Below are positions 1-7,755 of a stretch of 60,260 nt of DNA, piece by piece; positions within the stretch are counted from its first letter, which is position 1, and each line of letters opens with the position of its first letter. Both the position numbers and the translations under genes were made by a program. This DNA is from Candidatus Peregrinibacteria bacterium (lineage in GTDB: Bacteria > Patescibacteriota > Gracilibacteria > UBA1369 > JABINC01): positions 1 through 60,260 of the forward strand of contig JAUYJN010000032.1 in the NCBI GenBank assembly GCA_030700255.1, written 5' to 3'. The notes below the pieces were generated by a model. The model was not told the DNA's origin. It searched no databases and saw nothing but the letters and a program-made list of their open reading frames with translations.

Positions 1-306
1 ACTTATCCCAGCCTTTACCAACTCAACAATCCCATAGCCGGGAAATCTCTGACCATATCCATTCGCTTGTTCAGAACTTATCCCCGCCTTTACCAACTCA
101 ACAATATCATAGCTGAGAAAGCTCTTATCATATTTCAACACCTCCTCGTTACTTATCCCCGCCTTTACCAACTTAACAATATCATATACGTCAAATCGCT
201 CGGCGTATCCATTCGCTTGTTCAGGACTTATCCCCTCCCCTACAAATCCAGCGATAACGTATATGTTGAATCGCTCAGCATATCCATTGGCTGTCTCGGG
301 AGACAC
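1..306 (-). repeat. 75-bp in-frame tandem repeats encoding 25-residue helical units
   Basis: Four complete 75-bp units lie at 7-81, 82-156, 157-231 and 232-306, and a fifth begins at the window edge. The related starts acttatccc are visible at 1, 76, 151 and 226. Each unit encodes about 25 residues ending in a variant of YDIVELVKAG followed by IS and often EQANGY. The units nearest the edge are most alike at the DNA level, while the innermost one (232-306) is most diverged, which suggests recent expansion at the C-terminal end. The units look like a pair of short helices and may form a solenoid binding surface. Confidence 0.85.
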
Positions 307-1791
307 TTTACTCAAATATAGCATCGCTTTATCTTGAGTGGAAAAATAAGGGTTTGAATATGAAGGCATAGCCTTCTTAAAGAGTTCAAAATCATTCATC
401 ATCAACGCAATAACATCAATGGATGTAATCCCATATTCCACCATCTCGGTTATCTCCTCCCTTGTTTTCGAGGGCACAGCCTCATGAATTTTATTTATCA
501 GAAAGTCATTATTCACCTCTATGCCTGCAACATTTTTTAATTCCATAGCGATATCTGAGCTTTCCCTTCCTACGAATGGCATGAATGTCGCACCGCCATC
601 GGTTGTAATATATACGGTGGGTATTCTTTTCGGTTTTTCCACCTTCATTTTTGCAATAAGAGAATCAGACTCTTCCGGAAATTGATCCATCGTTATCGTG
701 AGAAAATTAACCTGCTCACCAACCATACCCCATACTTCATGAACCTCTTGTGCAAAAAGCTTACAAGGTCCGCACCAAGTCGCTCCAATTTCTATTACGG
801 TAGCCTTACCGGATCTCATCATTTTTTCATAATTTTCTTCTGTTAATTCAGTGGTACTTCTTGCAATTTCCCCATGTTCTTGAATACCAAGACTTGTATT
901 ATAAATAGCCATAGCGGCAAAAAACGCCTCTTGTATTGTCGTCAATCCGTCGTTGTTCATATCCCTTCCTTCACTGAGAGCGGCAAAAAAATAAGGAGCA
1001 AAAAATTGGCAAGCCGTTTCCACCCCCTCCACTCCGGGAGAAAGAGCAATTCCCTCGATGCCTGAATTGATAATAGCCTTCGGAAAATTTCCGCTATAGC
1101 ATTGATCAAAACTAGCGATTAATCGAGCGCCTTTGTTTTTTATAGGTTTCAAGTACTCCAAAAGCTCACTTTGCCTTAGATTATCACCCTGCAAATATAT
1201 TGTCGACTCACGCTCCGCCCCACCATCTCCATGTCCGGTTGTATACAAAAACACCAATGCATCTTTTTGCAAAGATGGGTCTAATTGTGAAAAAAGTTTA
1301 TCGACTCCGCTTTTCGTACCATCAAATTGAATAATTCCTTGGAATTCTTCCAGGTTTCCGGAGTGAGCGACAAATATCTCATCGAACCCGATCCCTTGTA
1401 AGGTTTTAATAGCAGATTTTACATTTTCAATATGCTTATCTTCAATATTATCACCATTTATAATTACGGCTATTTTTTTACTCACCGGATACTCCGGCAT
1501 CATTTCCAAGATTTCTCCTTCCAAAATATCAAGCTTCAAAAGCAATAAATCCACCTTTCCCATTTCAATCTTTTTCATTGTTTTTAATTCCTCTTCTATA
1601 CGACAAAGTTGGTCCGGCGTGTATCTCGCTAGGTTGTCATAAACCAACTGCTTATCTTCTAAGGTTTTAGCGGATAAAAAAGCGTCCAGAATATCTGTTG
1701 CAATTCGTACAGCATCTATAGGGGCTTCCACCTGATTATTCCCATTTAAATCATCTTGAATTTCCGGTTGTGCTCTATAAGAAGAAGGCAT
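1..1791 (-). CDS. Caspase-like protease / thioredoxin / tandem-repeat fusion protein, partial
   Basis: The frame is open from an ATG at 1791 through 597 codons to the window edge, so the C-terminus is missing. No signal peptide is visible, which suggests a cytoplasmic protein. Residues 1-100 are mostly helical and charged. Residues 105-240 resemble a caspase-like fold (clan CD, C14/C13-like): a strand followed by TTGHGDGG with His187, then IASFDQCYSGNF with Cys231, the expected catalytic pair. Residues 277-288 read DMNNDGLTTIQE, which fits an EF-hand-like calcium loop. Residues 325-425 form a thioredoxin domain with WCGPC at 339-343 and a cis-proline IPT motif near 390. From residue 496 on there are 25-residue repeats of the type GYAERFDVYDIVKLVKAG. 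The motifs are seen directly; the protease and redox activities are inferred from family knowledge. I know of no described protein with this domain order. The translation is by hand, but the frame stays open and every motif is coherent. Confidence 0.85.
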   Translation of the reverse strand, partial: MPSSYRAQPEIQDDLNGNNQVEAPIDAVRIATDILDAFLSAKTLEDKQLVYDNLARYTPDQLCRIEEELKTMKKIEMGKVDLLLLKLDILEGEILEMMPEYPVSKKIAVIINGDNIEDKHIENVKSAIKTLQGIGFDEIFVAHSGNLEEFQGIIQFDGTKSGVDKLFSQLDPSLQKDALVFLYTTGHGDGGAERESTIYLQGDNLRQSELLEYLKPIKNKGARLIASFDQCYSGNFPKAIINSGIEGIALSPGVEGVETACQFFAPYFFAALSEGRDMNNDGLTTIQEAFFAAMAIYNTSLGIQEHGEIARSTTELTEENYEKMMRSGKATVIEIGATWCGPCKLFAQEVHEVWGMVGEQVNFLTITMDQFPEESDSLIAKMKVEKPKRIPTVYITTDGGATFMPFVGRESSDIAMELKNVAGIEVNNDFLINKIHEAVPSKTREEITEMVEYGITSIDVIALMMNDFELFKKAMPSYSNPYFSTQDKAMLYLSKVSPETANGYAERFNIYVIAGFVGEGISPEQANGYAERFDVYDIVKLVKAGISNEEVLKYDKSFLSYDIVELVKAGISSEQANGYGQRFPGYGIVELVKAGIS

Positions 1792-4860: not shown

Positions 4861-6378
4861 TTAATAAGGAAAAGGTATCAGCTCATTTCTTTTCAAATAC
4901 CTAGGTTCAAAACTCACCCTTGGGACTGAGACTCCGATTTTCTTATAAAATTCCAATTCTTTCTTCTGAAATTTAAATGGTTTTTTCTCTATCGAACAAA
5001 AATAAGTATTTTCAGCCAATGATAAATCGATGTCAGAAATCAAATCTGGAATAGTCTCAGCCGACATGAAATCATCTGAATTGATAATAGCCTTTTCAGA
5101 AGTCTCCATAGGGAAATAATCTTGAGCAAGGGTGTCTTCATAAGGGAAAAGAGAGAATTTCTCAGGGAAGAACTCACCGTATTCGCCCTCTTTCTTCATA
5201 CTTTCAATTATTCGACCAACTAGCTCAAAATACTCCTTCTCGGAATATTTTTTATTAAAAATACAGAACTCGCCACCTCGAAGACCTATGCATCCGAAAC
5301 AATTTTTACAATTCCAACAATTGTCACAATACTGAAGACTATTTGAATACATAACATAATTACAAAATTTCAGATCGTAACAATGTGCAATCGTCACGCA
5401 TTCGTAACAAAGCTCCGTCTCCATCCCGTAAGCATAAAAATCATAAGTATCCTTAACATCGCGGGCATTCATAACGTATCTGCAATCTTGAAGCTCAGTC
5501 GCGCTATAACAATCAAAAGCATTCTGACTATCATAAAGCGAGTCACCGCTACAGTTTTCACTGTTAAGAATTATATGACGAATCTTTGGGAACGAAGAAC
5601 TCCACTCCTTCCAACTTTTTTTCAAATACTCCAATGATTTATAAGAATCAACTCTATACTCTTTCAATTTCTGTTCGTATTCCTCCTTTGTAAGCTGTTG
5701 ATTAAAAAAGCAATATTCTTGCCGCTCAAGCCCATAACAAAACATAGAATTTCTAACTCCACGACAATTTCGAAGAAACATCGAGTCGCTACAATTGTCA
5801 CAATCATCTGAAAACTTCACATTGTAACAATGCTTCACATTGACGCACTCGTAACACAATTCCGACTTAAGCGTATTCGTGCAATCGACACAATCTTTAC
5901 ACTTATCAGCGAAACGACAGTACATACAATCCTCATCATCTTCGGAATTAAAGATGAAATAACAATTGCGGGAATGGCCGCAGTGATTGGCATATTCGGT
6001 GTTCTCCAAACTGCCGGCAAGCGCCATATGCATACGCGGAGCCTTGAGCCAAAGCTCATAATATTGATCAAAGAAAGATCTGTTAAAATCATAACTTTCA
6101 AGAAAAGGTATTTCAAAATTTTGCTTATGCCATTCATCAGTATGATAAACTGGAAAAGGCGCATCAGGTTTCACGTTTGAAATAATATATTTATCAGTAA
6201 GATTGCATTTTCTTTTATAAAGTTTTCGCTCATTACGAAATTGCAAACGTTTTCGAAGACGATCTTTTGGACACAAAGTCGGAAGTGGCACTTCACGTTT
6301 CGCATAGTAAGCCTGATCCTGCTGAGTGATTTCAAAATCAGCATGACATACTACACATTTTTGATTAATCAAAACCAT
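4861..6378 (-). CDS. Zinc-ribbon plus cysteine-rich repeat protein of unknown function
   Basis: The 505-residue product holds about 33 cysteines. The N-terminus has a zinc-ribbon-like segment (CVVCHADFEI, then LCPKDRLRKRLQFRNERKLY) of a type common in CPR genomes. Residues from about 130 to 400 carry repeating CYxC, CxxC and CxNC spacings. The segment starting SELCYECVNVKHCYNVKF and ending in EYCFFNQQLTKEEYEQ recurs later as TELCYECVTIAHCYDLKF to EFCIFNKKYSEKEYFE, so the core is an internal duplication. There is no signal peptide. The regular spacing could form a metal-rich solenoid or an array of zinc knuckles. It ends the pyr gene run, 9 bases downstream of pyrF. Function unknown; nucleic-acid binding is a guess. 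Confidence 0.8.
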   Translation of the reverse strand: MVLINQKCVVCHADFEITQQDQAYYAKREVPLPTLCPKDRLRKRLQFRNERKLYKRKCNLTDKYIISNVKPDAPFPVYHTDEWHKQNFEIPFLESYDFNRSFFDQYYELWLKAPRMHMALAGSLENTEYANHCGHSRNCYFIFNSEDDEDCMYCRFADKCKDCVDCTNTLKSELCYECVNVKHCYNVKFSDDCDNCSDSMFLRNCRGVRNSMFCYGLERQEYCFFNQQLTKEEYEQKLKEYRVDSYKSLEYLKKSWKEWSSSFPKIRHIILNSENCSGDSLYDSQNAFDCYSATELQDCRYVMNARDVKDTYDFYAYGMETELCYECVTIAHCYDLKFCNYVMYSNSLQYCDNCWNCKNCFGCIGLRGGEFCIFNKKYSEKEYFELVGRIIESMKKEGEYGEFFPEKFSLFPYEDTLAQDYFPMETSEKAIINSDDFMSAETIPDLISDIDLSLAENTYFCSIEKKPFKFQKKELEFYKKIGVSVPRVSFEPRYLKRNELIPFPY

Positions 6379-6387
6379 AGATACATT

Positions 6388-7479
6388 CTAAAAAATCGAG
6401 TTGAGATCTTTTTTCATTTCAAGAACTGCATTGTGAGCGGCGGCTTCGAAGTGAGAACCATCCTTCGGACCATCTACTTTTTCGTATGCAAAAATAATTC
6501 CACGAGAAGAATTGATTATGGCGCCGCGACCATCCTTGTTAAAACATGGAGCGACTTCGGCGGCGCTACCGCCTTGTGCGCCGTAACCTGGTACCAAGAA
6601 AATAGTCTCTGGCATAAGTTTTCTGAGCTTGGCCGCTTCAGCCGGATATGTCGCCCCAACTACGGCGCCAACACTCGAGTACCCGGACTTTCCAATTTCC
6701 TGTGAGCCCCAACTTTCTGTAAATTGTGCAACCATTTCATATACAGGATTACCACCATCAACAAAGCGGTCTTGTATATCTCCACTCGACGGATTTGAAG
6801 TTTTTACAAGTATAAAAACTCCTTTTCCAAATTTCCTAGCAGTGTCTATAAACGGTTTCACCGAATCGTAACCCATGTATGGATTTACCGTCACGGCATC
6901 CACATCGAGAAGTTTTATCGAATCATCAAACATTTCCACTTCTCCCAAAAAGTAATTCGCGTAGGCCTGTGCTGTCGTACCTATATCGGATCTCTTCACA
7001 TCCGCAATGACCATGAGCCCCTTGGACTTGGCATAACGACAAGTTTCTTCAAAAGCCAAATATCCAAAAAATCCATACTGTTCATAAAAAGCTATCTGTG
7101 GCTTCACAATCGGCACTAGATCACAAACCGCATCTATAATTCCACGATTAAATTCAAGCAATGCCTTCGATGCGGCCTCTGGAGTAAACCCAAATTTTGC
7201 CGTAATCGGATCAACTATACATGCAGGAATTTGCGAAAGGCGTGGATCAAGCCCCACACAAATACATGAACCTTTTTTATCAATCGCTCTGTTCAATTTG
7301 TCCGCAAAACTTTCGATTTTCAAATTCTCAAACTTCACTTCAACATCATCCTCATCCTCAACATCACTTACTATCTCTATATCCATCTCAACCCCTGTGA
7401 CAAAGCCGCCAAGCCCACCCGGATCCCCCGGCCCTTCTTCAGGAATAGCCTGTATAAAATCATCATCATCGTGTGTCAT
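6388..7479 (-). CDS. pyrF: Orotidine 5'-phosphate decarboxylase, type 2
   Basis: The enzyme converts OMP to UMP, the last step of pyrimidine synthesis. The catalytic motif VIADVKRSDIGTTAQAY is intact, and CVGLDPRL and the C-terminal VPGYGAQGG fit the longer type 2 subfamily. The core begins near residue 57 (ESFADKLNRAIDKKGS), where most family members start. About 55 extra residues precede it and are very acidic (DDDD, DVEDEDDVEVKFE) with a glycine-proline stretch. An internal Met at residue 32 is an alternative start. The gene lies in line with pyrE, pyrK and pyrD and just upstream of the cysteine-rich gene. Confidence 0.92.
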   Translation of the reverse strand: MTHDDDDFIQAIPEEGPGDPGGLGGFVTGVEMDIEIVSDVEDEDDVEVKFENLKIESFADKLNRAIDKKGSCICVGLDPRLSQIPACIVDPITAKFGFTPEAASKALLEFNRGIIDAVCDLVPIVKPQIAFYEQYGFFGYLAFEETCRYAKSKGLMVIADVKRSDIGTTAQAYANYFLGEVEMFDDSIKLLDVDAVTVNPYMGYDSVKPFIDTARKFGKGVFILVKTSNPSSGDIQDRFVDGGNPVYEMVAQFTESWGSQEIGKSGYSSVGAVVGATYPAEAAKLRKLMPETIFLVPGYGAQGGSAAEVAPCFNKDGRGAIINSSRGIIFAYEKVDGPKDGSHFEAAAHNAVLEMKKDLNSIF

Positions 7480-7566
7480 ATTTTTTTAAGTTAATTTTAT
7501 CAAAAAAAAACTACCTTTTGATGAGTGGTTTTTCAAGCTAAAAGTATATAATCCCATATTAATTAT

Positions 7567-7755
7567 TTATCCGGTCATAAGGCTAGCAGCCCCACTTCGG
7601 GTAGCCTCCATAGGACCAAGGAAGTCAGGAATAAGTGGAAACCCAATCGCTGAAACAGCAGCGGCCATAGCCAAACCGCCAAAAACTACAATACCGGTTC
7701 CGATGGCTAAGTTTTCTGCACCTTCTTTGAAATCATGCGTCCAATTTTCAAACAT
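7567..7755 (-). CDS. Small hydrophobic protein, one or two membrane helices
   Basis: The 62-residue frame lies between pyrE and pyrF on the same strand. After a short polar N-terminus (MFENWTHDFKEGAEN) it has a glycine- and alanine-rich hydrophobic segment, GTGIVVFGGLAMAAAVSAIG, that could span the membrane. The start has the AT-rich leader common here (aacaatcaattATG). There is no recognised family. It could be a real small membrane protein or a chance frame; strand and position favour the first. Confidence 0.45.
   Translation of the reverse strand: MFENWTHDFKEGAENLAIGTGIVVFGGLAMAAAVSAIGFPLIPDFLGPMEATRSGAASLMTG

Follow-up and report, generated by a model that had tools for sequence, protein, structure and literature searches.

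The window analysed here, a stretch of 60,260 nucleotides forming contig C32 of the genome of a Candidatus Peregrinibacteria bacterium (1.37 Mb, 97% complete), encodes a protein in which a clan CD (caspase-fold) protease domain with a His/Cys dyad, a thioredoxin domain with its active site and a series of 25-residue helical repeats are joined in one chain. The protease-thioredoxin core, including a third cysteine (Cys261), recurs in two phyla, and the repeats attached to it are exchanged between members. In our best reading, to which we assign a probability of about 0.42, the protein would be a redox-gated clan CD protease: its fused thioredoxin would act on the catalytic thiol, and the exchangeable repeats would target it.

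Gene, reading frame and contig junction

The gene is read on the minus strand from 1791 to 1 and leaves the contig at base 1, with 597 codons lying in the window; the 597-codon frame of the preliminary description is real, though cut off by the window edge, and its residue numbers (His187, Cys231, DMNNDGLTTIQE at 277-288, WCGPC at 339-343) are correct. No frameshift splits the domains. The features of the gene are as follows.

1..1791, minus strand: gene for caspase-like protease, thioredoxin and 25-residue repeats (open frame, ATG at 1791)
1501..1791, minus strand: N-terminal segment, residues 1-97, mostly helical (low-confidence full-length model, pLDDT 25-53)
859..1482, minus strand: clan CD (caspase-fold) protease domain, residues 104-311 (model, structure matches, family profile)
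1231..1233, minus strand: predicted catalytic His187 (YTTGHGDG), invariant in the 17-sequence set A8; the catalytic His of metacaspase-4 and that of legumain align here
1099..1101, minus strand: predicted catalytic Cys231 (DQCYSG), invariant in A8 and aligned with the catalytic Cys of the PDB matches
1009..1011, minus strand: Cys261 (ETACQFFAP), which opens the helix preceding the EF-hand-like loop, invariant in 18 rows of alignment A7
928..963, minus strand: EF-hand-like loop DMNNDGLTTIQE, residues 277-288 (sequence; helix-loop-helix in the model)
553..855, minus strand: thioredoxin domain, residues 313-413 (Pfam PF00085)
763..777, minus strand: thioredoxin active site WCGPC (Cys340, Cys343), from the sequence
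619..621, minus strand: cis-proline position Pro391 (RIPT), a nearly invariant column in A7
307..552, minus strand: helical linker, residues 414-495 (full-length model, pLDDT mostly 58-85)
1..306, minus strand: helical repeats of 25 residues, starting at residue 496; the fifth and last copy ends at residue 620, on contig C35 (self-identity)
1..141, no strand: overlapping stretch, 100% identical to the end of contig C35; the assembly break falls within the repeats

Contig C35 of the same genome carries the frame on for 30 residues to a stop, which gives a full protein of 627 amino acids. As the overlap between C32 and C35 falls within near-identical repeats, the precise count of copies is uncertain. 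The exact 141-base overlap likely equals the word length of the assembler, and the repeat number may differ among strains. Two Cys-rich paralogues with 30% identity lie one on either side of the fusion gene (window 4861-6378 and, on the C35 side, L003:1779-2771), in keeping with the join of the two contigs. Both proteins contain many paired cysteines, and the one in the window gave no Pfam match. A TrmB-family transcriptional regulator (L003:813-1595, Pfam 2.8e-11) is encoded on the neighbouring contig.

Fold of the protease domain

The structure predicted for residues 95-311 (pLDDT 79.7, pTM 0.84) has the caspase fold that had been proposed from the sequence, and the proposal is borne out both by the structure search and by a profile of 17 family sequences. 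Among solved structures, the model matched legumain (Z 18.0), metacaspase-4 (17.1), GPI8 (16.9), caspase-7 (16.0) and MALT1 (15.9), and the best 50 matches were all clan CD proteins with Z between 15.5 and 18.0; Foldseek ranked MALT1 first (2.6e-6). The profile of 17 relatives, compared with solved structures, reached metacaspase-4 at 3.3e-5 and legumain at 9e-5, together with GSU0716 and GPI8, and in the profile alignments, where shown, the catalytic His-Gly and DxC were aligned with those of metacaspase-4 and legumain. When solved structures were searched with just one or two sequences as query, all matches were chance ones. A full-length model built from three sequences had a pLDDT of 54 and was set aside for fold, domain placement and searches.

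By Z score the best structural match is legumain (family C13, considered here together with GPI8), with an rmsd of 3.0 over 189 residues, and the profile match to it brings the catalytic residues, His and Cys, into register, but sequence identity to legumain is about 15%, the thioredoxin and repeats are fused in the window protein, and no legumain propeptide or secretion signal was seen in it. With the metacaspases, orthocaspases and paracaspases (family C14) it shares the fold and the HG and DxCxG motifs. The window protease part alone matched Pfam Peptidase_C13 with E 2e-4 and 21.4 bits, below the cut-off of 22.8; the relative L072 passed the gathering score with 25.5 bits, and 10 of 17 members matched C13. 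Pfam C14 gave no match to the window protease domain and weak ones in some relatives, with E 0.01 reached by only 6 of 17 members. A filing under C13 was considered and dropped, since the domain falls short of the Pfam cut-off and its structural match to C13 exceeds that to C14 by less than 1 Z. On the evidence of the model, the window protease part has a clan CD protease fold and is assigned no further than the clan.

The sequence DMNNDGLTTIQE fits the DxDxDG...E pattern of an EF-hand loop, and in the model of residues 95-311 it is flanked by helices 260-274 and 286-304. The family profile matched EF-hand proteins weakly, Pfam EF-hand models gave no match in the window protease domain, and the acidic positions are preserved in most members. 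The loop pointed out earlier is present at residues 277-288, but it is not peculiar to the fusion, because two ordinary bacterial caspases found alongside the family (L091, L114) carry the same acidic residues.

Thioredoxin domain, N-terminus and repeats

Residues 313-413 match Pfam PF00085 with E 1.7e-10 and 41.2 bits (cut-off 23.5), and both WCGPC and the cis-proline are kept, so that, judged by sequence, the assignment of a true thioredoxin domain is certain, as it had been described; against the NCBIfam model for thioredoxin itself it scores 33.4 bits, below the cut-off of 96.8. It differs from thioredoxin proper in being an internal domain of a predicted protease. Within the family, 24 members have a thioredoxin domain, and 18 of these carry CxxC. 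No signal peptide was seen in the N-terminal segment of the window protein.

The 25-residue repeats are likewise real: at a lag of 25 the tail has a self-identity of 0.34, whereas 2000 shuffles never exceeded 0.165 at any lag. They are helical in the full-length model, which is of low confidence. Elsewhere in the window's order, as far as searched, the same repeat was found only in long repeat proteins from two genomes, with E down to 3.4e-10.

Family and distribution

Close relatives were found in 2 of 353 genomes of the window's class, its own included. The second is Candidatus Peregrinibacteria fen_1329 (PMDG01000017.1), whose 955 aa protein is 45% identical to the window protein in an alignment unbroken through protease, linker and thioredoxin; its C-terminal part consists of ankyrin repeats (Pfam 6.9e-101) instead of the 25-residue repeat, and its N-terminus shows, by eye, a hydrophobic stretch up to LPGC that could be a lipoprotein signal. 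Repeat proteins with the motif PWAEEVIKKAA flank this fusion gene (L027:7853-9901, 6985-7689 and 1082-2636), which perhaps marks a repeat-protein locus; they gave no convincing Pfam match.

A third fusion is encoded in a genome labelled Deltaproteobacteria (JAHFSU010000054.1), in a phylum where relatives were found in 23 of 46 genomes searched. Most of these are protease-thioredoxin proteins followed by HEAT (L072, L078, L080, L085), TPR (L075) or TPR-like repeats; the repeat type varies among relatives and the protease-thioredoxin core stays. These alignments show the fusion to be conserved in both phyla, with no break at the linker.

Some members depart from this pattern. In L075:4114-7707 (H to Q, C to E) and L070:1323-2837 (C to N) the catalytic residues are dead and long arrays of TPR or TPR-like repeats follow; their products are likely pseudo-proteases retaining binding functions. 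The C-termini of L086, L090 and L093, and also the tails of L073 and L077, resemble strands of the beta-barrel or autotransporter type, with no obvious signal peptide; a Pfam scan of L090 gave no barrel match. Seven weaker caspase-like loci elsewhere in the window's class had no thioredoxin match in the stretches examined, and in the same class the proteins with caspase-like domains at L128, L126 and L130 look secreted and carry, by eye, S-layer-homology-like segments N-terminally, possibly constituting a group of cell-surface caspases in Patescibacteria.

In the tree, the window and fen_1329 proteins are sisters (99/94), and this pair joins two proteins of one deltaproteobacterial-labelled genome (95/94). 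The rarity of the fusion in the window's class suggests that its genes there were gained laterally. The presence of the window's 25-residue repeat type in its own order favours local domain shuffling over mis-binning. A chimeric assembly or a mis-binned contig might be suspected from the end of the gene at a contig edge within near-identical repeats and from the few close matches in the class, but every domain join lies inside the contig and away from the overlap, the second species has the same protease-thioredoxin join, many members of another phylum share it, further genomes of the order contain this repeat type, and Cys-rich paralogues flank the gene on both contigs; we therefore give an artefact only a very slim chance.

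Cys261 and the thioredoxin active site

Across the 18 aligned cores of A7, Cys261 is more invariant than the catalytic Cys. Every one of the 18 members whose thioredoxin CxxC is intact has Cys261, against one of the six in which the thioredoxin domain is detectable and the CxxC is damaged. The five losers (L083, L084, L086, L090, L093) all have a damaged CxxC; the sixth, L075, has kept Cys261 and lost both catalytic residues. In L083 the protease dyad is intact and the thioredoxin domain scores 46.9 bits, with CxxC and Cys261 both gone. Cys261 is also kept in two members without any thioredoxin domain, L070 (catalytic Cys to Asn) and L079, and legumain, which has no thioredoxin, has a Cys at the same place in the HMM alignment, so that Cys261 may be structural. 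A test of the co-loss of CxxC and Cys261 on the tree yielded just one independent pair with support, and the AU test did not reject a grouping of the five losers in one clade (p 0.108); the link is therefore treated as suggestive, and its use as strong evidence was withdrawn. Read in this way, the co-occurrence is a correlation that would fit a thiol relay between thioredoxin and protease, and it lends the redox link between the domains, raised in the preliminary description, more support than expected.

The main rival explanation makes the thioredoxin a docking or substrate-handling module that, like a chaperedoxin or PDI, would hold or reduce clients for cutting, with Cys261 serving a structural role. 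It draws on the retention of thioredoxin-like domains that have lost their CxxC (L083 as above, L086 with 24.9 bits, L090 and L093 with about 12), which would be expected were binding more important than redox chemistry, on the cysteine at the equivalent place in legumain, and on the fusion of thioredoxin to helical repeats, which is a known design of chaperedoxins. A CnoX-like protein is described in PMC11241051. A pure docking role would not predict the association of Cys261 with CxxC in the family, and on balance we regard this explanation as rather unlikely.

Proposed mechanism

In the redox-gated reading, the product would be an intracellular protease permanently joined to a CxxC thioredoxin and to a helical-repeat targeting module. 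Oxidation would trap Cys231, most simply as a disulfide with Cys261, and proteolysis would stop; the fused thioredoxin would exchange with the Cys231-Cys261 pair in cis, and protease activity would track the thiol redox state of the cell. Cys261 opens the EF-hand-like helix-loop-helix, which may make activity depend on calcium as well or relay a calcium signal. The repeats (25-residue here; ankyrin, TPR or HEAT in relatives) would pick the partner or substrate and could be exchanged. That such gating of a clan CD fold is chemically plausible follows from legumain, in which protease activity is suppressed when the catalytic cysteine (Cys189) is held as a mixed disulfide (PMC4506564). Extended to the whole family, the proposal would be that of caspase-fold proteases with a built-in redox switch, in which the thioredoxin makes or breaks the Cys231-Cys261 disulfide and interchangeable repeats aim the protease; in this specific form we hold it as a tentative possibility.

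The same residues and the same evidence would also serve a switch running in the oxidising direction, in which Cys231 is free and active in reduced cells and an oxidised CxxC hands its disulfide to Cys231-Cys261, turning the protease off; the direction is not readable from the sequence. WCGPC, however, is the classical motif of reducing thioredoxins, and the lack of a visible signal peptide in the window protein also speaks against this direction, which we consider distinctly improbable.

Defence question

The protein had also been put forward as a possible new defence effector. As a regulated-death or immune effector, it would sense a trigger through its repeats, be kept ready by its thioredoxin and cut cell proteins. 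Bacterial caspase homologues with repeat modules are common and have been linked to signalling or death (PMC3501461), exchangeable repeats would suit changing triggers, and a PADLOC caspase model weakly matches a single member of the 17 (8e-4). Against this, the window protein itself matched none of the PADLOC models, the loci compared share no neighbour family that goes with the gene, the neighbours in the window are ordinary genes by their translations, and no close relative was found in the viral contigs, plasmids and phages searched. These results do not support a defence island and leave room for a stand-alone effector; a death or immune role appears improbable to us.

Relation to known systems

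In a survey of prokaryotic metacaspases covering 671 proteins and 112 architectures, the fusion partners include WD40, TPR, Sel1, FGE-sulfatase and NACHT domains, and the word 'thioredoxin' is absent from its text (PMC3501461). Many of the bacterial C14 homologues are, like the window protein, fused to repeats (PMC3501461), and an EF-hand-like acidic loop is shared with L091 and L114. The gene of the Nodularia metacaspase M33 adjoins that of a DsbA-like thioredoxin (PMC4933709), which likewise brings together a bacterial caspase homologue and a thioredoxin-fold protein, but as adjacent, unfused genes. Nothing closer was found in open-access papers on caspases and thioredoxins in bacteria or Patescibacteria, and no family with this domain order, of which none had been known to the preliminary description either, was found in the open-access literature searched.

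A caspase-fold protease and helical repeats are combined in one bacterial protein in the TPR-CHAT protease (Csx29) of Craspase. Csx29 is a CRISPR-linked CHAT protease and has no thioredoxin. The fusion described here is a real and apparently undescribed variant of the bacterial clan CD proteases.

Significance

Bacterial caspase homologues are many and their control is mostly unknown, and the three-part design, together with a third invariant cysteine, gives a testable idea of redox control. Distant bacteria join the same core to repeats of different types, and among them are Patescibacteria whose very small genomes have kept a protein of this kind, about 600 residues long. If the proposed mechanism is true, this would be, as far as we found in the literature, the first case of a thiol-disulfide exchanger built into a clan CD protease, and such a switch would be shared by the deltaproteobacterial-labelled phylum and the ultrasmall Patescibacteria.
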